The notes under the pieces: generated by a model
The model's database searches: none
The model's input: only the letters and a program-made list of their open reading frames with translations
What the model was told of the DNA's origin: nothing
Part shown: in pieces, positions 7,224-51,903 of the stretch
How the letters are laid out: every line of letters begins with the position of its first letter
How positions within the stretch are numbered: position 1 is the stretch's first letter
Position numbers and translations under genes: made by a program
DNA from: Spinellus fusiger
Lineage: Eukaryota > Mucoromycota > Mucoromycetes > Mucorales > Phycomycetaceae
Length of the DNA: 64,000 nt
Reading direction: 5' to 3'
Assembly (NCBI GenBank): GCA_025094145.1
Contig: JALLLS010000002.1
Span: 930,001 to 994,000, forward strand

Positions 7224-10200
7224 TTATAACTCGTGTTTCTGCTGTGAAGGGTCTGTTGGGTCCATAGACCCTATATGCTGTGGAGTGGTAGCAGTAGAAG
7301 ACGTGGGTACTCTACACAACCCACTGAAAAGACTGTCTGGCACACATCGAATCAGAACACCAACAGGCAGACTTAAAAGGCCTATGCCAACCGCAATCGC
7401 CCAGTGGAGTCCATCCATAGGAGTTACCTGAAATGCTGCTCCTCCAAACTCCACAATAAGACACTGACCCACCACACATAGAATAAAGATAGCAATAAAG
7501 AACTTGTTTTTCGAGATATTATCAAAGATATTGAATCGATTGTCAATGCGACGACAACTATCAATAAGCAATGCGTTTTCTGAATGAGTTACTGGATTCC
7601 CCCACTTAACTTCTTTTCTAGCACTCCCATCTCTCTTATTTTTGACAAGAATAAAACAACACTTACTTGAGTTCATTGAATATCTGACAAAAGACAAATG
7701 CATTAAATACAAAAGTCTGAAGCATGTCTTCTTGCAAGACACCACTGAACAGACCACCATACAACAAAGCCAACATCACTGCTATTTGAAATAGGGCTTG
7801 ACCAATGATCATTTTCCACATCGTCAATGTAATCAATGGTGCTGATCGTGCTTCTGGTGCACGCTCCAAGAGCTGAGGCGTGGGTGGATCCGTAGCAAGA
7901 GCAAGAGCAGCAAATGTATCCATGATCAAATTGACCCACAGCAGCTGAACAGCCGTAAGCACTGATTTCTGAGAAGAACTTGCTACTGCAGAAACAAACG
8001 TAAGGATCACAGCCGTAATATTCACCGTCAATTGGAATTCCAGAAACTTCTTCACTGCATCGTTCACACAACGACCCCACAGAATAGCCTTGACAATACT
8101 GGAAAAGTTATCGTCCATCAGAATAATGCTGGAGGCTTCCTTGGCTACTTCTGTACCAGCAATGCCCATGGAAAAGCCAACATCCGCTGCCTTGAGTGCA
8201 GGACCATCGTTGGTCCCATCGCCTGTGACAGCCACAATCTCACCCAGTTCTTTCAGTTGGCACACAAGTACTTGTTTGTCGTGTGGGCTAGACCGGGCCA
8301 ACACCTGGAGCCGTGGTAAAAGGGCTTTTTTTTCGGAAGAGGACAAGGCAGAGAACTCGGGGCCTTCCATGGCAATTCCGTCTGGGGTGTAGATCCCACA
8401 CTCTTTGGCAATGCTTTTGGCAGTGTCGATGTTGTCTCCTGTCACCATACGAACAACCACACCTGCTTTTTGACATGTTTTGATTGCTTCTGTGACGCCG
8501 GGCCTTAGTGGGTCCTGAATGCCTACAATGCCTACAAAGGTGATGCCGTTGTTATGAGTGAGGTCTTTGAAGGTCACTTCATTGGTGGAAGCAGAGGTAG
8601 AAGCAGAAGAAACAGTCTCATGAGAAGGAGGTGGCCAAGTCTCGAAATCACAGTAGCCAATGCTGATGGTGCGTAGGCCAGAAGTTGTATAAGTTTGAAG
8701 TGTGGTTTGTATGTTTCGGTAATCCTCTGGTGTCATAGGTCGACTATAGACAACATTGGATGCCGATGGGGTAGGGGTGGATGGTATGGAGGAAAAAGAG
8801 GAAGAGGAGGAAGGTGAAGAGGGTACCGAGGCTGATGATGTAGTGGAGAATGAGTCAAGACATACTGTGGTAGAGCACCAACTAAGCAATGTCTCAGAGG
8901 CACCTTTGATATGAGCTCGGTAGATAGACTTGGATGGATAAGAAGGATGAGGCATACGAATAACTGTGGCCATGGCTTTAAGGTCAGAGCTAAAGGGGAA
9001 CGAGTGGTAGGCAGGCCATTCTGTACGCAGGATGTCGTAGGGTGCAGAGCATGTTTCTCGGCCCAACATCAACAAAGCAGATTCTGTCTTGTTCCCTACA
9101 AAAAAGGTCTTGTCATCTTTTGTCGACTCAAAGGCAGAAGAATTGACAGCAATGGATTGGTGGAGCAGAGACATAACAGGAGGAGGAACAGTGGAAGCCA
9201 TATGGCTCATTGATAATGCATAGGTAGCTCTTTCAGACTTGTGTGAAAAGTGGAGTGAAGGTCCCAAGAGACATTCCACTGCTGTCATTTTGTTTTGAGT
9301 AAGGGTGCCTGTCTTATCTGAACATACAGTAGTAGCATTGCCCATCGTTTCACATGCAGCCAGTACACGTACTAAATTATTGTCTTTCATCATGCGTTGA
9401 GTAGCATAAGCAAGTGCGAGAGTCACTGTCAACGGCAACCCTTCAGGAACAGCTACCACTACTACAGTGACTACAACAATAAGAATCTTCATTATTTCTG
9501 AGATAATAACTGTGGCCTGATCTGGTACTCCATCTTTCCATCCCACAAAATAACGAATCAATAAAACAGTTAACATTAAAAGACCAGCTGCTGACCCAAG
9601 ATTAGCAATCATATCTGCAAGTCGGTTCAATTTCATTTGTAAGGGGGTGGTTTGTGGTTCAGACCGTAAAGCCATCATGGTACGTCCATAGTAAGAATGG
9701 GCACCCACTGCTGTGACAATATACGTGCCATTGCCATCAATGATCTTGGATCCTGAGATGATAAAGGGATCCATGGTGTCCAGAGACATCGAGACTGAAG
9801 AGTACGAAGTAGAAGAAGGGTGGATAGGCTCTTTGTTTAGTTTCTCTTTCTGTTCAAGCCATAAACGTTCACATGTAGACCATTCTTGTTTCTTAACCGT
9901 ATCGGATTCACCTGTGGCAGCAGACTCATCACACTTCAGATTGCCTTTGATAAAGACGCCATCTGCAGCAACGATGTCGCCTGGTTCAAGATAAAGGACC
10001 TCACCTACTTGGACATCATAGACAGAAATGAGCACAGGAACGCCATTACGGGTTGCCTATCAACGAATGAGTCCAAACAGGGCCAGGCATGAGATATAAA
10101 TGTGTAAAAGTACCTTGACATATCTGTCTTGTTTTTTGGCGTTTAGCTTTTGAAATTGTTTTTCTTTTTGATAGTCATTGACACTTCCAATAATAACGAC

Positions 10201-23064: not shown

Positions 23065-26000
23065 ATGAAAACATCGTTCAAGGCAAGAACATTCAGACAT
23101 GAACATAAAAAGGAGAAGAAACACCCCTCATTAACTTCCTCCATGTCTTTACTATTCTAGTTTTCAAACTTGTGTGGTACTGTCTATACAGGTGGAAATC
23201 TGATATTCACTCCGGATGGCCACTCTGTGCTTAGTGCAGTAGGCAACCGAGTCTCTGTATTTGACTTGGTCAAGTAAGCATCCCATGTCTTGTTTCTTGT
23301 TTCTTGTTTCCTGTTTTTTTGTACTGATTATGGAGACACTAATAGCAACAAGTCTTACACTCTGCCTATGGATATGCGCAAGAATATTGTTGCCATGGCA
23401 CTCTCACCTCAGGCGTCTCTTCTTATTACTGTAGACCAAGGTGATGATTAAGCAGGCACCTTTGCTCATTCACTCTCTCTCTCTCTAAAGAAGAAAAAGA
23501 ATCCTAAACTTACTCCTTTCTTTTTTATTATTATGACCATGACCATGACTCAACAGACGGACACGCTCTTCTCATCAACTTCCCTCGACGTGTTGTTCTT
23601 CACCACTTCAACTTCAAGGCAAAAGTACGAGCCATCCAATTCAGCCCTGATGGAAAGCATTTCGCCGTGACACATGGAAAACACACACAAGTATGGAAGA
23701 CACCTGGATTTACTCGTGAATTCTCGCCTTTTATTCTTCACAATACCTACACGGGCCACTACGATGATATTGTGAATATTACATGGAGTTCAGATTGCAA
23801 GTGAGTCTTTCTTTCTTGTGTAGGAGGGAGGGAGGCTGATATTGGGTGTATAGACATTTCATGACGAGTTCCAAGGACATGAGCATCCGTATCTACTCTG
23901 TTGATCCTCAGTCTAATTATACTCCTCCTGTGCTGACAGGACACAGAGATGCTGTTGTGGGTGCATGGTTCTCAAAGGATAAGAAAAGTGTAAGTGCAGT
24001 GACAAGCCTATAGAAAGAAAAGAACGGAGAAAGAACGGAGAAATAATGGGCTTTTTATATAGATTTACTCTGTGAGTAGAGACGGAGCACTGTTCCATTG
24101 GAAGTACAGCACCTACACTGATCTCAAAGGACTCACTCCTGAAGACATGGAAGTGGATGATGGAGAAGAGTGGGTGGATAAATTCAAATGGAGAGTGGCC
24201 AAGAAACACTTTTTCATGCAAGCACCAGCAAAAGTCAAATCATGCGAATTCTTTGCTCCAAGCCAATTGCTAGTGGTTGGTTTCTCCAGTGGTGTCTTTG
24301 GCTTGTATGAAGTCCCAAGCTTCAATGCAATTCATACACTGAGGTAACTTACTTTGCTGGATCTTACCTACCAACAGGAGTTCTACACACCAAAAAGAAA
24401 AAAGAAAAAAGTAACATCTATGTCTTTTTTTTATTTTTCGTTTAGTATCTCACAAAAGAACATTGACACTGTCACTATCAACCGCACAGGTGAATGGTTG
24501 GCGTTTGGTTCTTCCAAACTAGGCCAGTTGCTTGTATGGGAATGGCAGTCAGAAACTTATGTACTGAAGCAACAAGGACACTTTTACGATATGAACACTC
24601 TTTCTTATTCTTCTGACGGACAAACACTGGCTACGGGAGGGGATGATGGCAAAGTGAAAGTATGGAACACCACCTCCGGTTTTTGCTATGTTACCTTTAG
24701 TGATCATAAGAGTGGTGTAAGTGCAGTTGAATTCACTAAACAGGGCCAAGTCCTCTTTTCTGCCAGTTTGGATGGTACTGTGCGTGCCTTTGATCTTGTA
24801 CGCTATCGTAACTTCAGAACCTTCACCAGTCCCAACCCTGTTCAGTTCAGCTCTTTAGCCGTGGATCCTAGTGGTGATATTGTCTGTGCAGGCACATTGG
24901 ACACATTTGAGATTTACGTGTGGAGTGTACAGACTGGCAAATTGTTGGATATTCTTGCTGGTCATGAAGGACCTGTCAGTGCTCTTGCCTTTTCTCCTTC
25001 TGACATGCTACTTGCTAGTGCTAGCTGGGATCGTACAGCAAGAACATGGGATGTGTTTGGACGCACAAAGATTGTTGAGCCCTTGCCTCATCAGACAGAA
25101 GTATTGGCAGTGGCGTTCCGTCCTGATGGCAAACATCTTGCTACAGCCACCCTGGATGGTCAGATCAGTTTCTGGCATGCGGAGGATGCTAAACTCCTCT
25201 CCACCCTGGATGGTCGTAAAGATATTTCTGGCGGTCGTAAACAAAACGATCGTACAACAGCTGAAAATGCAGCCTCCGGAAAGGCCTTTCACTCTCTTTG
25301 CTACACTGCCGATGGATCCAGCATTATTGGTGGTGGTAGCAGCAAATATATTTGTATCTATGACATCGACACCAGTGTGCTTGTAAAGAAGTTTCAGATC
25401 TCTGAGAACCTTTGTTTGGACGGAACTCAAGAAATCCTCAACTCAAAGAAGATGACAGAGTATGGAAGTATAGAAGAGATGGAGTCGGAGGAAGAGTCTG
25501 ATCTGGAAGACCGATTGGACAATACATTGCCAGGCACACAATCTGGGGATTTGTCAGTGCGCCGTACACGCCCAGAGGCTAAATCCAAGGCAGTGCGCTT
25601 CTCACCCACAGGCTCTGCATGGGCAGCAGCTACTACAGACGGTCTTTTGATTTACTCATTGGATGATGCCATTATGTTTGATCCATTTGATTTAGAGATT
25701 GACATTACACCAGAGAGTGTGATGGAGACACTGGAAGAGAAAGAATATCTAAAGGCACTCTGCATGGCCTTCCGCCTCAATGAAAAGGCCATACTGCATA
25801 CTGTGTTTGAGGGCATTCCACCAGACTCTGTTGACTTAGTAGCCCGTGGAATGCCAGAAAAGTACCTACAGAAGTTGCTTCAATTTGTGGGTGTGCATAT
25901 GGAGACAAGTCCTCATATTGAGTTCCACTTGATATGGGTGACAAGTATTATGACAGCCCATGGTAGATATTTGAAGCAGCACCGTGGTGAATTCCAGTCT

Positions 26001-26201
26001 GTGTTTAGAACACTGCACAAGGGTGTAAATCGTGTGCGCGATGATATCTCCAGTCTGTAAGTGAATCTGTAAAAGAAAAGGGAGATACAGTTGCTTACAT
26101 CTTTTTGTTATGTTGATAGGTGCGATACAAACACTTATACACTCAAATATCTTCTCAGTCAACAACAATTAACTACAAAAGCAGATGTAATGGTAGAATA
26201 G
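23065..26201 (+). CDS. PWP2: PWP2, WD40 protein of the U3 snoRNP (UTP-B)
   Basis: Component of the small-subunit processome needed for 18S pre-rRNA processing in the nucleolus. Eight exons: 23065-23082, 23161-23273, 23346-23440, 23557-23800, 23854-23989, 24063-24343, 24446-26056, 26120-26201; 859 aa. The start MKTSFK|FSNLCGTVY matches the family N-terminus. Two WD40 propellers follow, for example GHYDDIVNITWSSD, TGHRDAVVGAWFS, AGHEGPVSALAFSPS, SASWDRTARTWD. An acidic stretch (SIEEMESEEESDLED) precedes the C-terminal Utp12 domain (KEYLKALCMAFRLNEK). It ends in LCDTNTYTLKYL, as in other PWP2 proteins. Intron 1 begins with GC (AAG|GCAAGA). Length is slightly below yeast PWP2 (923 aa). Element B ends 128 bases before the ATG. 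Confidence 0.95.
23083..23160 (+). other. GC-AG intron 1 of PWP2
   Basis: 78-base intron with donor AAG|GCAAGA and acceptor TTCTAG. It is needed to join MKTSFK to FSNL, the conserved PWP2 start. No GT donor is available at that position. Confidence 0.75.
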
Positions 26202-39576: not shown

Positions 39577-41161
39577 TTTTGCTTTTTTGGTAGCTTTCTC
39601 ATTGAGGCTACTGATCGATGTGTTGAGCGGTAACACTAATACTGTCATAGAGTGCAAAGACTCCTTCAGCAACAGACGCTGTATCCTCACTTCTCCTCCG
39701 ATCTCTCCTCTACCACCCATTCTTAGCCCATTTAGCAAAGCCAGAAGCTGCTAGTGTAATTGCTACATATATTCTCAGGATTGGGGAACATTTCTCGCAT
39801 ACCTTTAATGGTAATTTACACGCTCTAGTACTTCGGCGTAGAACCAGATAGTGAAAACTGTCGGCACTTTTTTTGACCTCCATACATAGTATATGGATAT
39901 TCTCAAATACCAACCCTCTATCATGGTATTGATTTTAGTTACATAAAATTAACATCAATGATAATAAAATGAGAAATATTCTATTTTCATCATTCATGTC
40001 AAACCTAGTAATGTGACGCCTTGACTTAACTCGGCCATCTCTCCACTATGTCAAACTCCGTAATACAGAAATGTTCAAAAATCTTAGGTATATTTCAGAT
40101 CTAGACTATAGTTTTACCCTTGAATATGTATTTTTTTGTACCATAATATTTATCTCATATAATAACTCTGAACAAACCAAAAGAAAAATTGGAAACAAGA
40201 AGAGAAATACTGATGAATTTAATTGTCTTCTCATTGCTCGCTAGGCTACTGTCAACAGTGACACGTGGGAGAATGATCTTCCAGCAAAACACCAAATCAA
40301 CATCTATCTTCCGCTACGGATAATTTTTCTTATTTAGACACCTTTTATCTTTTTACATTTTCACTTATTAATTTATCTGAGTCAAGTTACTATTACCATT
40401 GTTCTCTTTTCATTTCCCTTTCCCCATCAAACTCCTTATCGTCGGCTTTTTTTTTTTGCTTTTATTATTATTCATCTTCTTTGTCGACAACTTCGTTGTC
40501 ATTTTATCTTTATCTTCCTTTCTTCTGTCTTCTCGGAAATAATTGTCTAGACTGATGGTCTTTGACAATTATTAGTCATTCAATTGATAAGAAAAACATA
40601 TAAATATCTAGAATACTTCAATGAAATAAACATTATCTTTACTTGTCTAAAAACATCCTTCTTTTGTTCTTATTCTATTTGTATTTTGATTCGTCTTCGA
40701 GCTCAGTGTTCTGTGATATTGTCCTGAGTGAAATATCAAACTTACTGCCTGCTATCGTTAATTATTTATTTGTTTTTCTTGTTCTTATTATTGTTCTTTA
40801 GTTTGACTCTTTGATCAAGCTAGTTTTTGTTGTATATGTATCCCTTTCTCTCAGATCTTTGATCATATTTTGTTCTTATTATATAGCTTTAACTTGATTC
40901 ATCGATCAAGTCATTGTTATTGTTATTGTTTTATTCTTTCTATTCTTATTATCTTCTGAACGTGTGTGCTACACAGCCAAGCTCACTAAATATCAACAGC
41001 ACCTGTCAAATTACCATGTGTGTTAGATTTGGAGTTAGTACATAGTCCATTTCCCGTATTGTATACTAGAAATTATGAGTCTTTTTGCATGAAAAAATCG
41101 AATAAGACACACTTCATTATCAATTTTAAGATAGTTTACCTGTATCATGTGTTTCCGCCAG
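39577..41161. other. AT-rich gap downstream of the Fanzor gene
   Basis: No gene seen. If the Fanzor copy at 41.2-43.5 kb has a guide-RNA region it should lie at the high end of this gap (about 40900-41160), but that sequence shows no clear similarity to the conserved right ends of elements A and B, and I could not find terminal repeats. Confidence 0.5.
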
Positions 41162-43480
41162 TTAGTCAACCGAGGCTCTATCGATAACTGGGAAGGAGAG
41201 GGATGGAGATGAACCAGAAGGCTTGGACTTTTTCTTGGTTCTAGGTGTATCTTTGGAATCATTCTTTCTTTTGTTATATCTACAAAATCGCTCTGGGCGG
41301 GTACTATGTTTCCTTAGAGACATTAGACTATGTCTAAAGTATAATGTAGCAGCGAGATCACGATTCCAAAGCTTCAATGTCTTGTCTTTTATACAATTTT
41401 GGTTTGAACACTTATTTGAAAGGAGAAAGATGAGTCTTATTTTGATATAAAATTAAGAAGAAATGACCTGAGAAGACCATGATATTTAACTTTGGGCATT
41501 TTTGTTCGTTGGTAGGGCCTGGGGTTCTTGACATGTTTAAATGTTTCCAAAGGTGAGTACTTGCACTCAGGACACAGACTCGATGTTTTGAATTCATTGA
41601 TAAGATAGAGTTTGAATCCTTCTTTCTTCAACATCCTCCGCATGCCTTTTCCCTTTATTAGTTCATGGAACTTCATATTTGTGGCTGACCAGTCACCCAA
41701 TATCAACACCGGATCTTCTCCAAACCTGGCTCTCAGGTTTCGGGATAGTCGTTTATCAGACTGTAATCTATTGATATGACTTGATAGCTTCATCTTTCGA
41801 AACGGCAGTAGCGATTGTTTCATAATAAGAGAATTGGCACTTGAGGGACCTTTTTCTTTGACCCCACTGTCTTTTGTTTGCCTATTATCATCTTCCATTG
41901 TTTCATTGCCGTAATACAATATCAAGTCCTCCAATACACTTACTTTTGTATGTATGTATTTGATGAATTCCTGGAGTTTTACTGTTGAAGCAGGAACTTG
42001 ACCAAGTTTATCTTCTAGTCTTTAGATGGATGGAGGCTTGAGGTTCTGTCGAAGCTTCTTGAAATGGGTTGACTTTGTTTTTTTTGGCTCGTTGATTATG
42101 TGTATACCTGTAGGTGGATTTATTATCGGGTGTACTGTTTTCTTGCGTGAAGAATAATAGGTCTCGATGACCCGGATCGATGAGTACGCATTTGTCTTTT
42201 GTTTCTGCTAATGTAGCTTGAGATATCTCTTCAATCGATTCAATGTGGTCCTCGTCAATAAGTGCTTTGAGGCTACCACCCAAGGAACGTCTCGATATAA
42301 GGTTTTGCTTGATTACTGACACTGCCACACCATCGGTTTCTAGTGTACCTTGAAATCTCATTGACCTATCTATACCTTGACCTTTGAACACCTTTGATTT
42401 TAGATTGACGACTTGACCCCAAAGATCAAACTTTTCGCTCGAGTAGCTCTTGTTTTTTCAAGATAGGGTGGTTGAGTATCTTAGTATCTATCGTAATGTG
42501 AGAAGGAATAAAGCTTTTACGAAGTGAGAAACAACTAAAAGATCTGTTTCCATTCTCTTCGTATAGTTGGGCCAGTTTAGCAAATGTGTACATGTGCTTG
42601 GTTGGATTGGCTTTAACATCATAATAGATGGATTTTTTTTTGGCAAATCTATAACTGGGAGGATAGCAGGCTAGCAGTTCTTGTACTTGGCTAATGGCCT
42701 TTTTGTTCAAAAAATCTACGGGTGCATTGGGAACAGTTTTTGTCGAAATGTCTAGTTTGATTTGCGTACACACATCCAACACATTTAATCTAATAATATT
42801 TGCAATGGCCTCCTCAGAATAGTTTTTAGCTTTCATGGCATGGGTCAATGTGGTAATCCTTTCTTGTTGTCGTAGGATGATGTTGAAGAACATTCTAAGA
42901 TGATTTCGAAATTGAGACGCAATATTATTAACGTAGGATGTGTGTATCTTGGTGCTTTCATAAATAGATCTTTGTTGAGCATTGGTTATTTTAATTGGAG
43001 TGTAGGACACATATTGGCAGTAGTCATCTTTCAATGGGTTGGTCTTCTTTCTTATTTGACGCACTTTGGGTGTGAGGCATGTTTTACCGGAAGCACTACC
43101 TTCTCTGGTTTGCTTATTAATGAGGGACAAAAGCACCTCACGGAAGAAATCCTTAGTTATGCACTCATTCAACGCAGATTCATCTTCATTTTCGAGTATA
43201 TGGATCAATATATACTTGGAGAAAGCATAAGTATGAGAAACAATGGTATTGATGTTATGAACCAGACATTGTAAAACAAGTGAATATTCAGAACTCCAAG
43301 CAGTATCACGTAAAGATGTCTTGATTGTCATTATTCTGGCATGATTTGCACCCAAAGAACTTGCTATAGGCTCTTCATCAGTCTATTATAAAAATCAAAT
43401 ACATGTAAGAATCCTAGGTTGAATCTATAAGCATGTTGTATCTTCTTTACTTCATTAACATCTTGTTGGCTGAATAGCAT
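41162..43480 (-). pseudogene. Fanzor RNA-guided nuclease (eukaryotic TnpB homologue), nearly full length
   Basis: Homologue of TnpB; Fanzors are RNA-guided DNA endonucleases carried by eukaryotic transposons. Exon 1 (43480-43451, MLFSQQDVNE) joins through a 68-base intron to 43382. The long N-terminal region (about 320 aa) is helical. RuvC-I reads CVLIDPGHRDLLFF (Asp), followed by VLILGDWSATNMKFHE. The Fanzor-type displaced RuvC-II Glu lies in LYLINEFKTSSLCPEC, which also holds the first zinc-ribbon cysteine pair. After an intron (41467-41411) come CSNQNC and RuvC-III LWNRDLAATLYFRH (Asp), then a basic tail. Three lesions break it: an extra base in an A run (42432-42435), a frame change near 42015-42023, and a missing G after the last acceptor (the other copy has it). 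Otherwise about 730 aa with all catalytic residues. Confidence 0.85.
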
Positions 43481-43981
43481 CTTTAGTTCAGAAAGAATAG
43501 ATAGAAATACAATAAGAAAGAGGAAATAAATAGTTATTTTATTAGCAACACTGAATAGTGTCAGCTATTATTTATCATCCATTGATGTGATGGTGTCGTT
43601 AATGACTTCTTAGGTCCAAAGGTATTGGTTTAGTTAATGTACAATTAACTCTGCTCTTATTTATTCAACTTGTTTGTTATTCTTTTATACTTCTTTTATA
43701 CTTTAATGGTTATTACAAATAGAAGAACTTCAAGGAAATCACCACCAAAAGGCATACATTCTAATGCAGGCTGTTGTACTTTTATGTTATCTCTGAAAGA
43801 TTAATCCACTGTATTCAAGTATACTACAGCTTATCATAGATAGTTCATCACAAACCATTGATTGTGTGGCTGTTTTTTTTTACAACTTGCTAACTACTAT
43901 TTTTGTTTTTGTTTTTTTAATAAGATAAAATACAATACATTATTGCAATCATAATAAAACGTAGAATATTTTTATTTTTTG
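43481..43981. other. Gap between Fanzor 5' end and the CNNM gene
   Basis: AT-rich; promoter side of the Fanzor gene and 3' flank of the transporter gene, with AATAAAA near 43953. No element terminus recognised. Confidence 0.45.
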
Positions 43982-46134
43982 TTATTTGTCTTTGTCATTT
44001 AGAAGAGGTAGTGTTTCTGAGTCTACATCTTTTTTATCAGTAGTATGGGACAAAGCAGCATCTTTTAACACAGCATATGTCTTCATATGGGGCTCAACTA
44101 CATGTCCATTTTCATACGATCCATAAGTTGTATTCAGAGAGTTTCCTCTTGATGGTGGTGCCTTATCATTAGAACCAGGTCGACGTCTATGAGCTGACAA
44201 CATGCGCTGAAGACGACTGTCTTTTCTAACAGGGACCTGTCTGCTTACAACCCGAATCTTGTTTTGAACTGAACAGAGAAAAAAAATGCAATAATTGAGT
44301 AATGTGCTCTTATTTCTCTTTTCTATATCACTTTACCATCCACATAGACATCAGTCTCGTCAATAATTTCCTTTTTAAAAAATAAAAATAAAAATAAAAA
44401 GTATTAGAACACAATATTAAAAGTAAAAATAAAACAAGAACGCAGAACTCTTCTATTGTTATAGACTATATGTTTACCTCTCCAATTAGCTCTTCAATAA
44501 CATCCTCCAATGTAATAACACCTAAAGCACCGCTCTGGCCTCCAGGATCATTTGAAACTAAAGCCATATGACCTACAATCCAGAAGATTAGACTGGCAGA
44601 TCAAGGACAGCCATGCCAAACTTACTCTTTCCTTCCTGGAAGAAGTTCAAGATATCAAGACAGCTAGTATCAGGGCTTGTTTCAGGCAGTGTGCTCATGG
44701 GAAGATCTTTTACAGGCAGAGCATCTTCAGGATCGTATGTAATCAATCGTTTTGTTAACAGCATGCCAACAAAGTTGATCTTGTTATCGGGTGTGTAAAT
44801 AGGAATACGAGAATATCCAGCAGAGAGAATCTATGAATAAAAGAGACAGTGTGATAAGTATATGCTTCCTATAAGTGTAGAGTATACCTCATCCACAACT
44901 TTCTCGTCAAGAATATCTTCTGTTGACAAGGTGAATACGTTTTCAAGAGGTGTCATGATCTGGGAGACAGGTTTTGAGCGCAAGTCAAGGACTGCACCAA
45001 TAATAAGAACCTCATCCGATGTCAAGGCATCAACATCAGATGAATTGACAGCTTGATGGAGAGAAACGAGTGATTTGAGACCTGTTTTTATGAAGAAAAA
45101 GTAGTGAATAAGACAGTTCTCATCTCATCTCATTGTTGTTGTTGTTTTTCTTTTTCTTTTTCTTTTAGGGCGTGAGGTATCCATAAATGATAACTCACCC
45201 GCCTTTTTATACACTGTTCCATGAGATTCACCAAGGATGTAATCGAGGAGTTTTGCAGTGGGATAAGCAACAGGGAACATGATATACATAAGTCCAACAA
45301 CCATTCTAACAACCATCATTTGAGCAAGTGACTATTGTATATCTACACAAAGTTTATACATACCCTGAAGTTCTTGCACCAATGGCGAGTCCATAACGAA
45401 CACAGATGGCTACAGCAAGAATTGAAACAAATAGGTGGTATCAGTCATTAGAGTCAATCCTATAGTATAGCCTTTTTTTGTCTTATTATTATCTTACATT
45501 GAGGAATGACTCTTTAGATATACATGAGCATACACACAAAGCAAAAATAATAACAAATAGGTTAGTAAATAACATGTCTTTCTATTATATCGTATATCAA
45601 AGACACTTACTCGCCAAAAATGACAATCAATGCAGTAGAAATAACCACGGCCTGAAGTCCTCCTCCAGCAACCTCATGAAGAACAATAGGAAGTGTCTCA
45701 TTGACAATAACATTGGACAATAACAACGTCACCAACACCCAGTGCTTTCCACGGTCCAGCAATGCCAGTACCTTTTTTGCATTTGCACTTTCACTGGGAG
45801 TTCCAGACTCAATAAGAACATGGAGGTTTGTTTCATCCAAACCCATCAAACCGAGTGTTAAGCCTAATTCATTCTATAGATAAATATATCATCTTATGTA
45901 TATATTACTCCATCCTATTTAATGTCATGAAAACAGCCACTCACCAGCAAAGACACCACCAATGACAACCAAAATAAAGATGGCAATAAGCTTTTCCCAG
46001 TAGGAGGCAGAGGCATAGCTCTCGGGTGCATCAAGCACACTCAGAATAGGTTGTCCATATATGGGAGAGTTGAATGAAGCAGCTGATAGTATTAAAGACC
46101 TAAGGAAATAGAACCTAGATGTCATAAGCTTCAT
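43982..46134 (-). CDS. MAM3: CNNM/Mam3-type membrane protein (DUF21 + CBS)
   Basis: Metal or Mg2+ homeostasis protein of the cyclin M family, in the vacuolar or plasma membrane. Ten exons: 46134-45945, 45863-45611, 45511-45498, 45409-45360, 45331-45199, 45081-44888, 44830-44626, 44572-44478, 44370-44337, 44268-43982; 484 aa. After a hydrophobic leader comes the DUF21 transmembrane domain: [72 protein letters not shown]. Two CBS repeats follow: [55 protein letters not shown] disordered C-tail ends LLNDKDK. The 14-base third exon supplies the conserved VIPQ; without it the frame breaks. Start is ATG at 46134. Confidence 0.95.
45498..45511 (-). other. 14-base internal microexon of the CNNM/Mam3 gene
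   Basis: Minus-strand AGTCATTCCTCAAT, preceded by an AAAG acceptor and followed by GTAAGAT. With its neighbours it reads FGE-VIPQ-SICVRYG, which restores a motif invariant in this family and keeps the 484-codon frame. Confidence 0.85.
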
Positions 46135-48069: not shown

Positions 48070-48774
48070 TCATTCAATAGGCAAAAGATGACAGCCTAAA
48101 GTTCCTCTTCCTCCCCAACCACGTCTGGGGATCAGTGTCAGCAAGACTATCTGTGAATCACGCATCACATTGAGGAGAATAGGCTGTCCTTCACTGGCTA
48201 CGACGACATCACTCACAGCCTGAAGATAATTTTGGCTGGGAGGAAGAGAGGTAGTTACTTTACCGAATCGAAAGATTTGATCGCCCTTGCACAATCCAGC
48301 ACTCTTGGCGGGGGAATCGGGTGCTACAGCATTGACCAGGGCAAAAGGTGTGGGTGCTGTGGGTGCTGTATTGCTGGTGTTTATGTTATGGTTGCTATTG
48401 CTGCTGGTAGATTGAACAGGACTGTTACTATTGGTACTGTCATTAGGACGAGGGGTGTTACTGGCCTCAGCTCGACTGACTTGATGAATGACATGCATTG
48501 CTTTCTCAATTTTGGACATGAGGGCTGTATGGTCATTGCGTAATTCATACACTCTGCTACGTGCCACGCGTGCTGCTGCTACATCAATATCGGAGCGTGG
48601 AAACCCTTCTCTATCTACTAGAGGCGTGTCCATGCCTACACCCTGAGAACGCAGTCCTTCTAAGAGAGTACGCAGTTCTTCTTCAAGGGCGTCTTTTTCA
48701 AGAATAAGCACCTGAGCCTCTTTAGCAAGGGCTTCTGTTCTGCTCGTAGGCTCATTTTGGGCGGAGTGTGACAT
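48070..48774 (-). CDS. NAS2: 26S proteasome assembly chaperone PSMD9/Nas2
   Basis: Chaperone that holds Rpt subunits during assembly of the proteasome base. Intronless, 234 aa. The N-terminal helical region (about 15-110) contains EELRTLLEGLRSQGVGMDTP, LVDREGFPRSDIDVAAARVA and RSRVYELRNDHTALMSKIE, the family signature. A linker rich in Asn, Ser and Thr follows. The C-terminal PDZ-like domain has FALVNAVAPDSPAKSAGLCK, GDQIFRFG and LTLIPRRGWGGRGTLGCHLL, which is diagnostic. It ends PIE. Start is the only in-frame ATG (MSHSAQNE). Length is close to yeast Nas2 (220 aa) and human PSMD9 (223 aa). Confidence 0.97.
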   Translation of the reverse strand: MSHSAQNEPTSRTEALAKEAQVLILEKDALEEELRTLLEGLRSQGVGMDTPLVDREGFPRSDIDVAAARVARSRVYELRNDHTALMSKIEKAMHVIHQVSRAEASNTPRPNDSTNSNSPVQSTSSNSNHNINTSNTAPTAPTPFALVNAVAPDSPAKSAGLCKGDQIFRFGKVTTSLPPSQNYLQAVSDVVVASEGQPILLNVMRDSQIVLLTLIPRRGWGGRGTLGCHLLPIE

Positions 48775-50291
48775 TGATTTGGCTGGACAGAGACTAAAGA
48801 AGAGCAAAAACTGGTATAAAAAGAGTATTGGGATTTTCTTATGAAACTCATCAGCTTAGAATATCAGTCATTTGCCAAAATAAATAAAAAATAAGCCAAT
48901 GATAAGGCAGTGTTTTTATTTTATTTTATTTTATTTTATTTTATTTAAAAAAAAAAATATTTCAACAGCAGCAAATAAAGAGGTAAAGACCAGTGGACAG
49001 TAGTTTACTCTAGAAAAGAGACAAATTGTAGATTGCAGTTGAGACAGACAAAAGAGAGCCTTTGGACAATTGACTAGTGTAGACCACAGTCAGTATAATT
49101 GATGTTGGTGTTATTTACTTTGGAATCTTGAACTACATCCATATCCACTTGTAATAGCTGTCTATTTTTATAGTGATTTCTTAAAATGTGGTATAATATG
49201 TTGGTCAATCCAATACACTCTCCTATGAATTTGCAGTATCTTCTTTCCTTTCCTTTCTGTACCCATAGCCATCATAGGTAGATGAGATGGGTTGTATTTG
49301 ATTCTTCTTCCAATACCGATGTACTTTTATAGTCTTACAATTAAATTTTATATAGCTGCACTGCATTGGATATAGCCTTCTTTCTTGGTTCTCTATCATT
49401 GTCTTTTCTCTTTTGTGACTATCATTAGACTTGTCCAAAATATAAGATAGGTCTTTGAACCCTCCTATGTTTTTGTCTCATATATTGCAATTGTCCTATT
49501 TTTAGGTATAGATACTATATCCTACAAAAGAAGAAAGTAGATGGCTGTCCTTTAAGTTGGACTTACTGGCAAATCCACAGAGCAAGAGGTAGGAACGACC
49601 CATCCTTGTATTGCAGACATCCAAATGACTCTTCCTTTTCATGGTACACCTGTTGTCCTTCATGTGAAATTCTAACACTGCTTCTGGGTGTAGAATGAGT
49701 GGATGAGACACGTGTTATATGAACAGCCACAAGTGATTTTCAGTTCACTGGTCCTACCCCACTGAATGGGCTCCTACACGCGTCATTACACAATAATGCA
49801 GACAACCACCAAGCCAGGAATAAGACCCCAGTCGTATTTCTGCTGCTTCCATGGACCAGGAGAATGGAACCCTCTTTTCTATAAACAGGACAGAGGGAAG
49901 AATATCAGTGGCTGTTCTGTCTATCATCCACAGTCCCGTGATCACTACAGACGAGAGATGGGTGGGGTGTTTATAAGCAGTACTGTACTTGCCCCATTTC
50001 CTTTGTCTTCTAACCCAAGACAGAGGCTCCAAGATAGAATGGGAACAGCCCTTGTTCTGCCAATCAGTGGGATGGCTGTGTTTAGATTCATATGTTCATT
50101 TGACTAAGCACAGAAAAGAGCAGTCATTATTTCCTAAAATGTACATATTCTTTAACAGTGCTGTACCTCTGGGGAAATGTCACGTACAAGACATTTGAGT
50201 ATTTAAAACACCATGATGGTACAAATACATTAGTCAAGTGCCTTGTTACTGTTGCTGTTGCTGTTGTTGATATCCAAGTTCTTATTCATTT
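48775..50291. other. Divergent gap between NAS2 and the paraoxonase-like gene
   Basis: A TTTTA run lies at 48915-48950. The stretch 49500-50040 is less AT-rich and has open frames on both strands (minus: RVPFSWSMEAAEIRLGSYSW; then RKSHLDVCNTRMGRSYLLL) with usable splice-like sites, but I recognise no family and could not build a full gene. The remainder shows nothing. Confidence 0.35.
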
Positions 50292-51903
50292 ATGCCTCGA
50301 AAAACATCCTCACTCACTTGGATTGGTGGAGGACTGGTGGCTCTTGCCGCATATCATTTATGTAATAAGTCAAATGGAGAAATGGGGCCCCCTTCTCTAA
50401 TGTCTCCTGTTGATGAAAAAAAGGATAGAAGACTAAAAATCAAATTGAATGAAATTGAATGTTATCTGTAGATCCCTTAATAGGACTGACGAGTGTAGGT
50501 GTTACTATTCAGTCTTATGGTATGGAGGGGTGCACTCGTATTCAAGGTAAGAATAAGGATATATCAAGCCATTGTCTCTTTTGAACACTCATTATTGTGC
50601 CTTTATCTTTACTGCTAATTGTTTATTATGGACATGCCCTTGTCATTAGGTCCTCCTGATTTCAAATTCTGTGAGGACATGGTACCCTCTACTACTGAAA
50701 AGAACATTGTCTATGTGGCCTGTGATCCCATGCGTGATAGAATCAACAAAGTGATGAATATCTATTTAACAGAGGATTTACTTGCAATAGAGACAGGCAG
50801 TGTGTGGAGAGTGAACTATACTGATGTGAGTTGATGGTTTTCTTTATTGTATGATATAGTATAGTATAGAGTGTATTCTATAGAATATACATATATATAC
50901 ATATATATATATGTATATATATATATATACTCTCTCTCTGGGCACAGGTGGAGGGGGTCCTTTGGCTTGCTTAGTTTATATTGACCTTACTGCTGACACG
51001 TTGACCGAATACTAGGGACAAATTGAGAAATTAAAGATAAAGGGATCCCCTAAAGTAGCCAATGATCTTCACACGCTTGGAATTGCCTTGGATGTGCATG
51101 GAGATCAACACACTACCCGGGCCTTTGTAGTTAATTTACCTGATCAAGCCCCTTCAGGTGTCGAGGTGTTTGGTGTCCAAGCAAGCACAGATGCTTCAGG
51201 CACAAAGGAACTTGTCCACTTGAAGACAATCACCCATCCACTGCTCGCTACTCCCAACAGTGTGCACCCCTTCCACGATAACCGATTCCGTGGTCCTGAT
51301 GGCACACCCTCTTTCTTTGTTAGTAATGACCACTACTTCTACAACCCTTTTCTCAAGATGTTTGAGAACTACTTGCTGCTGCCTATCACCAATGTGTTAT
51401 TTTATGATGCACGGGTTGGCACCTTTTATCCAGTGGCCAAGGGACTGGTCTTTGCTAATGGATTGGCAGGAGATGACTCTGTCTTGTTTGTGTCCGAGAC
51501 CAATCTACGCTCCGTTCGACAGTACACTATCCATGTGGTAGAAAACAAACAGGGGGATGGAAAGCCTGGTATTGTTTTGGAATATGTGAATAGCAAGGCA
51601 TTTCCTTTAGCTACTGATAATTTGAGATATGACAGCCAGACACAAGAGTTGCTTGTGTCTGGACATCCTCATGGTCTTCAACTGCTTGCCTATGTCAAGA
51701 GCAAGAACAAAAAGGGAATGAGACCCCCTCCCATGCGTGTTATGGCATGGGATCTACAAAAGGACAATGTCAATGAATTATTAACCGACACTGGTGCTAT
51801 CTATGGTGCCTCTACTACTGCCCTACGTGATGCTGCCCAACATCTTTTGGTAGTGACCAGTTTAGTAGATCATGGACTGTTGGTGTGTCCTGACAAACAC
51901 TAG
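50292..51903 (+). CDS. Paraoxonase/arylesterase-like protein (membrane anchored)
   Basis: Calcium-dependent six-bladed beta-propeller lactonase/arylesterase family. Four exons: 50292-50361, 50472-50546, 50650-50825, 51016-51903; 402 aa. The N-terminus MPRKTSSLTWIGGGLVALAA is a short basic stretch plus a hydrophobic segment, a likely uncleaved signal anchor as in PON proteins. Then come GCTRIQGPPDFKFCED (usual CxxI.G..D.E..), IVYVACDPMRDR, LHTLGIALDV, ATPNSVHPF, FFVSNDHYFYNP (the family's Ca2+-binding FYVTNDHYF), FANGLAGDDSVLFVSET, and SGHPHGLQL. The catalytic-site Asn and Asp positions of the NDHYF block are present. It ends VCPDKH. Exon phases close exactly. The third intron holds an AT-rich microsatellite (50884-50930). 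The natural substrate is unknown. Confidence 0.9.

Follow-up and report, generated by a model that had tools for sequence, protein, structure and literature searches.

Does the stretch of Spinellus fusiger DNA analysed here (64,000 nucleotides, hereafter the window) host a gene for an RNA-guided nuclease, what condition is that gene in, and what has carried it there? Fanzor, the eukaryotic relative of TnpB to which the original prediction assigned this locus, is absent from the titles and available abstract parts of the Spinellus fusiger papers found. The neighbours of the locus in the window are the following.

7663-10056, minus strand: cation P-type ATPase
24348-26060, plus strand: PWP2 (100% identical to a Spinellus fusiger protein across the 95% covered; Phycomyces PWP2 is 90% identical)
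48070-48855, minus strand: Nas2/PSMD9-like
51016-51903, plus strand: arylesterase domain

Phycomyces, like Spinellus, belongs to the family Phycomycetaceae. An Rfam scan and a tRNA scan of the window were both empty.

Identity of the gene

A Fanzor1 gene lies on the minus strand at 43480-41162, with its start codon at 43480 and its stop at about 41162, so the coordinates proposed for it are exact. Its set of catalytic residues is complete: the RuvC-I Asp, the displaced RuvC-II Glu, the RuvC-III Asp and both of the two zinc cysteine pairs are retained, as had been claimed. The motifs, read on the minus strand, are VLIDPGHRDLLFF, LINEFKTSSLCPEC, CSNQNC and LWNRDLAATLYFRH, and the stop-to-stop frames that bear Fanzor motifs run from 43382-42426, 42457-42008, 42021-41437 and 41452-41162.

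Every piece of the window was searched separately against the sequences of solved structures (PDB). The 318-residue piece matches chain residues 514-805 of the Parasitella parasitica Fanzor1 (PpFz1, 9cf0; E-value 1.7e-65), the second piece matches residues 806-928 (E-value 1.1e-28) and the third matches residues 954-987 and 1082-1207 (E-value 5.6e-42). These three pieces also match SpuFz1 (8gkh). The last piece, residues 14-59 of the ORF at 41162-41452, matches PpFz1 1206-1255 with an E-value of 0.0017, in a search where eight repetitive WD40 chains outrank PpFz1 via a short LWNR-like repeat. The piece at 43564-43364, which contains exon 1, had no match in the solved-structure search. The four matching pieces follow PpFz1 in unbroken order, well above what chance would give, and therefore form one gene. 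The claim of a Fanzor with all catalytic residues is supported.

The available text of Bao and Jurka (2013, PMC3627910) gives the Fanzor1 motif as D-X(125,275)-[TS][TS]-X-X-[C4 zinc finger]-X(5,50)-RD. The window gene has the Asp near 42177 and TSS-LC from ~41586, at a spacing of ~196 residues by coordinates, followed by two cysteine pairs and NRD near 41358. The accessible parts of PMC10711439 define Fanzor1 by DPG, an alternative RuvC-II glutamate and TDG; the window pieces contain DPG, the E of LINEF (the displaced RuvC-II Glu) and the WED TDG motif. With Pfam and NCBIfam, TnpB/Cas12f zinc-ribbon matches appear in the window below threshold, none exceeds it, and the rest are at chance level. 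At an E-value of 0.01 Pfam has zero matches for the S. fusiger paralogue L034, for the Mucor flavus protein P0028 and for the Pilaira anomala protein P0001, although PF26935 is annotated in the protein database for most relatives. Judged by its sequence, the window locus is a real Fanzor1 gene, a decayed copy of a known kind of RNA-guided nuclease gene.

Exon structure and damage

The element copy and its gene can be divided as follows.

41064..43904, minus strand: surviving part of the element copy (blastn against 20 paralogous loci)
43451..43480, minus strand: exon 1, start codon and 10 codons (found in the six copies read, with a GT donor next to it)
43383..43450, minus strand: intron 1, 68 nt, GTAAAG...AATAG (GT/AG ends in the copies read; exon 1 in frame with exon 2 by eye)
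41468..43382, minus strand: exon 2, with REC, WED (TDG), RuvC-I, RuvC-II and the first zinc pair (matches to 9cf0)
41412..41467, minus strand: intron 2, between 'LLR' and 'CSNQNC' (an intron in paralogues; PpFz1 is uninterrupted at 1206-1207)
41162..41411, minus strand: exon 3, with the second zinc pair, the RuvC-III Asp (NRD near 41358), the C-terminal tail and the stop (PpFz1 1206-1255, E-value 0.0017)
41064..41161, minus strand: right end, which closes with a hairpin and CTAGTA and is a candidate omega RNA scaffold (placed by analogy with other Fanzors)
41034..41063, minus strand: host DNA past the right end, which would be the guide if an RNA is made (from Fanzor/TnpB biology)

Within exon 2 the RuvC-I Asp lies near 42177, the alternative Glu near 41594 and the first zinc cysteine pair at 41574-41563. 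Both introns, near 43383 and between 'LLR' and 'CSNQNC', are common to the paralogues. Over the main exon, identity to L034 is 91%. In this copy the exon is interrupted by two frameshifts, near 42458 and near 42085, and by an in-frame stop (42024-42022); the acceptor of intron 2 (~41412) is altered too.

The original prediction had this copy intact recently and in need of just three one-base-type repairs. The repair count is wrong and the recent intactness is not supported: two of the breaks are introns, four other lesions are present (the two frameshifts, the stop and the altered acceptor), and not one of the 20 long copies tested, the window included, is free of lesions. Aligned to L045, in which exon 2 is frameshifted close to its end, every copy shows one or more defects of its own: a stop, a frameshift, a large deletion or an altered splice site. 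The splice donor and acceptor checks were string matches, in which a miss does not prove a dead site, and no copy was counted as damaged solely for a missed intron-1 donor. The usual intron-2 acceptor string is missing in five of the 20 copies (the window, L037, L039, L042 and L049).

Could the gene nevertheless be intact, with all of its apparent breaks being introns and a protein still possible? This is almost certainly wrong. Two of the breaks are indeed introns with GT/AG boundaries in the paralogues, but the two frameshifts and the in-frame stop fall inside an exon that is fully open in L034, and the intron-2 acceptor of this copy differs from that of the five paralogues compared.

Paralogues, fold and the FRI insertion

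The S. fusiger assembly (38.08 Mb, 197 contigs) was searched with the C-terminal piece; 150 of the 267 candidates were scored and all 150 were matches. A search for paralogues had been proposed, and a long open main exon does occur elsewhere in the genome: that of L034 is open over 641 residues and matches PpFz1 with an E-value of 2.8e-164. Gene-sense positions 1-2600 of L034 hold two Fanzor element 5′ parts head-to-head, with a short spacer between them. Further Fanzor1 copies in the genome are more divergent, e.g. C110:204782-206398, C114:459701-461167 and C160:192276-194077, on the minus strand. For such copies identity is ~35-45% over the REC and RuvC-I pieces and 56-63% over the C-terminal piece, and some keep long open frames of up to 559 residues.

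We modelled exon 2 of L034 with 35 of the 81 relatives found as input (mean pLDDT 82). In a Foldseek search with this model the top seven PDB matches are all Fanzors, from Parasitella, Spizellomyces and Guillardia, with E-values of 4e-48 for PpFz (40% identity), 3.1e-27 for SpuFz and 3.1e-14 for GtFz. The best Cas12, Cas12h1 (E-value 4.4e-4), is ranked after these seven. The model thus predicts for the paralogue the RuvC fold, of the Fanzor type, that had been expected of the conceptual protein. Among the 36 aligned proteins (L034 and 35 relatives) the TDG Asp, the RuvC-I Asp and the alternative Glu are invariant.

PpFz1 (PDB 9cf0-9cf3) is collinear with the S. fusiger gene through the REC, WED, RuvC and zinc regions and has the same catalytic residues. 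Two differences stand out. The window copy, unlike PpFz1, is a pseudogene, and where PpFz1 has the FRI insertion of ~100 residues L034 has a linker of 36 residues, from which PQP is absent. The spacing at eight divergent S. fusiger loci, read by hand from coordinates, is also too short for FRI.

In the accessible text of PMC11423790 the FRI insertion of PpFz1 binds cyclophilin, and the insertion is reported from Parasitella and Rhizopus only. Neither the available parts of that paper nor those of the literature on Fanzor with cyclophilin contain a prior report of FRI beyond these two genera. We find that the insertion in the Mucor flavus protein P0028 aligns with FRI, PQP loop included, and that proteins of M. 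mucedo, M. saturninus and Gilbertella have similar PQP-bearing insertions. The PQP-bearing insertions in Mucor and Gilbertella resemble FRI in sequence and are candidates for cyclophilin binding. The proteins with PQP are P0028, P0031, P0038, P0019, P0013, P0015 and P0016, in Mucor, Gilbertella and Rhizopus Fanzor1. Two Rhizopus microsporus proteins, P0002 and P0011, have unrelated-looking insertions at the FRI site.

In a quick tree of 35 rows, built with no bootstrap and with P0024 dropped as it lacks the FRI stretch, PQP occurs in seven rows, all within one 14-row clade (SH-aLRT 99). In the clade's other seven rows the insertion is long and lacks PQP; in two of these it is shortened, to 57 and 60 residues, by gene model or truncation. 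Spinellus falls outside the PQP clade, beside two Rhizopus microsporus proteins.

A large family with a fixed right end

How large is the family to which the window copy belongs? Allowing up to three mismatches, the genome contains 218 matches to a 34-nt core pattern from immediately within the right end, and 0 to the reversed pattern. Alignments of the window to 20 paralogous loci (blastn) mostly end at 41056-41064 on the right and at 43880 on the left. The left limit of 43904 comes from the sister copy L042 (96% identical), the left part being truncated or diverged near 43880-43904.

We aligned 41 copies, picked via their 3′ parts and thus unable to show a right end in every copy, to L033. 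All 41 reach the last or last-but-one reference base, and 38 are aligned, with small gaps, across the full 600-nt 3′ stretch or miss a single base of it; the exceptions are L042, with a large internal gap, L050, which begins at position 221, and L058, with a degenerate terminus. The terminus is exactly CTAGTA in 35 of the 41 copies and ends in TA in 39. With many dispersed copies, one fixed right end and right flanks that differ from each other in all 41 sampled copies, the Fanzor1 gene is carried on a eukaryotic transposable element, in agreement with the fungal mobile element that had been claimed.

Many copies are ghosts that lack most of the protein and keep the right end. A single deletion, corresponding to window positions 43320 to 41659, was found in all eight short copies examined over 1.6 kb and in all 12 others examined. 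Its junction occurs 96 times in the genome at up to three mismatches (reversed control 0), which is a lower bound, since two of 20 checked copies have four mismatches and go uncounted. By comparison, a hand count gave 23 matches to the RuvC-I piece (window included) at ≥70% identity over ≥105 residues, out of 149 in total, many of them short or divergent. The remaining right ends among the 218 belong to copies with other deletions or to copies whose decay prevents sorting. We also considered a strong loss of 5′ parts. The far-5′ pattern was counted 144 times, the exon-1 pattern 49 times and the RuvC-II pattern 96 times, against 218 for the right end, in counts that depend on the mutation rate of each stretch; the 5′ loss is modest only. 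The Fanzor1 family is large and largely decayed in the S. fusiger genome.

A comparable family is Spu-1 of Spizellomyces punctatus, for which the accessible parts of Saito et al. (2023, PMC10432273) give 42 Fanzor loci and 134 ghost loci. There, as here, ghosts outnumber the Fanzor loci, and the Spu-1 ghosts keep the guide-RNA end. As far as that text describes them, Spu-1 elements have 30-nt inverted repeats, ghosts without an ORF and strongly conserved omega-RNA regions, whereas the S. fusiger ghosts share one internal deletion, retain coding remnants and have a right end that is not specially conserved.

The carrier element

The right end is made up of a hairpin followed by CTAG, and in most copies a T comes next; the A after it is also near-constant. 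The left limits vary among copies. A search for terminal inverted repeats in 40900-44100 gave six short pairs, none linking the element ends, and upstream no clear match to the reverse-complemented right end was seen (best local scores 17-29). Tests for target duplications, at lengths from 9 to 14 nt, gave nothing above control; for 9 bp there were 5 matches against 0-8 in shifted controls, in a test where the left end of the element is unplaced. Hallmarks of Helitrons are a 3′ hairpin followed by CTRR, insertion before T and a 5′ TC end.

Just upstream of many long copies, and in the same orientation, lie Tc1-type remains with WSDES and LNPIEHVWWVLER, which we take to be Tc1-type transposase motifs. 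A Tc1-type element with terminal repeats CAGTCACACCC...GGGTGTGACTG is nested in or beside Fanzor copies, at L037 1487-2840, L038 344-1705 and L033 upstream of ~1597 (gene-sense coordinates; the L033 record itself runs in the opposite orientation). In L038 it is, by eye, apparently inside the Fanzor copy. A single Tc1-Fanzor fusion junction occurs at 14 places. The Tc1-type element looks nested and separate from the carrier.

The host DNA beyond the right end is not random. Flank positions 4-14 hold more information than all 5000 simulations. In the discovery half (21 flanks, of longer copies) TACT and ACTA tie at offsets 5-10, with 7/21 each; in the test half (20 ghost flanks) TACT is found in eight against 0.67 expected (p below 1/5000), in a test that was not fully blind as all 41 flanks (L031-L070 and window 41063-41034) were viewed before the split. 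ACTA, present in 3/20 of the test half (p 0.05), was not clearly replicated and was dropped as a flank motif. Reverse-complemented, TACT reads AGTA, the last four bases of the element.

What, then, is the carrier? A Tc1/mariner element that, like PGv-1, encodes a transposase of its own alongside Fanzor1 is unlikely. The transposase remains upstream of many long copies, the fusion junction at 14 places and the TA at 39 of 41 right ends all speak for it, but the Tc1-type element is closed by a right terminal repeat of its own ahead of the Fanzor part, it lies elsewhere in L037, L038 and L044 and so looks separate and nested, and its repeat and the Fanzor right end do not match. Tc1/mariner elements have matching terminal inverted repeats and a TA duplication; such repeats were not found. 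A carrier with one defined end, either rolling-circle (Helitron-like) or recombinase-based (Crypton- or MCi-2-like), has somewhat less than an even chance of being correct. It would account for the fixed right end with its hairpin and CTAG, the varying left limits and the internal deletions, and TACT 5-10 nt into 8/20 test flanks is consistent with it; on the other side are the modest 5′ loss (144 far-5′ matches against 218 right ends) and the target duplication that was looked for and not found.

The same traits are described in the available text of PMC3627910 for CRe-1,2,3 of Chlamydomonas, whose copies Bao and Jurka found to be 3′-biased, and for MCi-2 of Mucor circinelloides. In both, the 3′ end is fixed and the 5′ end is fuzzy or truncated; CRe elements have internal deletions, and the terminal inverted repeats of MCi-2 are not recognisable. 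That text gives target duplications of 11-12 bp for MCi-2 and of variable length for CRe, and none was found in the S. fusiger copies. It also places Fanzor1 in MuDr-like elements of Rhizopus (ROr-4), Phycomyces (PBl-3) and Mucor (MCi-4), which are Mucorales like the host of the window. These have MuDr-type repeats and 9-bp duplications; the 9-bp test in S. fusiger was not above control.

Selection and a candidate guide RNA

Are any of these copies, or the RNAs they might encode, under selection? Over the last ~440 coding bases variability at third codon positions does not exceed that at the other positions, either in long copies (n=19; p 0.18 and 0.68) or in ghosts (n=20; p 0.81 and 0.74). 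Selection on the ghost reading frame, which would leave a third-position excess, was therefore rejected. Without codon-position bias, the copies sampled show no sign of present selection. The sampled copies decay neutrally, a pattern expected of dead copies of a once active family.

By analogy with other Fanzors, the right end may encode the guide-RNA scaffold, with the host DNA beyond it as the guide. No guide-RNA signal was seen as excess fold stability (in L033) or as conservation of the right end (in 20 ghosts and 19 long copies). The fold of the final 110 nt of L033 is no more stable than that of shuffled sequences (z -0.17). For the 99 nt that follow the stop codon, mean per-site diversity is 0.142 in ghosts, against 0.094 for the exons, and 0.093 against 0.077 in long copies; the right end is more diverse than the adjoining coding parts, and special conservation of it was rejected. 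The terminal hairpin helix is 95.5% paired, against 92.6% in shuffles, mainly through one covarying pair, a difference to be read with the caution that kinship alone can lift related sequences above shuffles without structure.

The ghosts might still be functional, as a guide-RNA repertoire serving Fanzor proteins that are produced elsewhere, and persist or spread via RNA-guided cutting in trans. In favour are the at least 96 one-deletion copies, about four times the 23 that retain the RuvC-I piece, the right end in 20/20 sampled ghosts (selected by 3′ parts), the covarying pair of the terminal hairpin and, in the available parts of PMC10432273, the finding that SpuFz1 works with ghost omega RNAs. 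We nevertheless consider such a repertoire improbable, as in ghosts the right end has diverged more than the adjoining remnant of dead coding sequence, and nonautonomous transposons in general retain their ends for the transposase alone.

Discussion

The locus is very probably a decayed copy of a Fanzor1-carrying mobile element, whose intact three-exon gene would have encoded an RNA-guided RuvC-type endonuclease close to PpFz1, without FRI. We propose the following history. The intact gene would have produced the RNA-guided RuvC-type DNA endonuclease, and the right end would have served as the guide-RNA scaffold with a guide taken from the adjoining host DNA. Cutting of the empty site may then have led to the element being copied back in. 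A large share of the family would afterwards have spread as internally deleted ghosts, which kept the right end and lost the protein.

A bolder version, which we regard as a long shot, is that a single deleted Fanzor1, having retained no more than its ends and guide-RNA region, rose to be the most frequent of the recognised forms (at least 96 copies), moved or retained by proteins and Fanzor made elsewhere. The carrier would then be of a new type without terminal repeats, its AGTA right end lying a few nucleotides from a target TACT as a dyad like that of a recombination site.

Spinellus parasitises Mycena mushrooms. A special link between FRI and parasitism of the Parasitella type, which has been suggested in print, becomes weaker, because the insertion is found in Mucor and Gilbertella and is missing from the family in this mushroom-parasitic host.

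For the question of why eukaryotes keep Fanzors, the S. fusiger genome, with its two dozen or so long copies and roughly a hundred one-deletion ghosts, offers a further natural setting, beside Spizellomyces, for asking whether the guide RNAs of protein-less copies matter.
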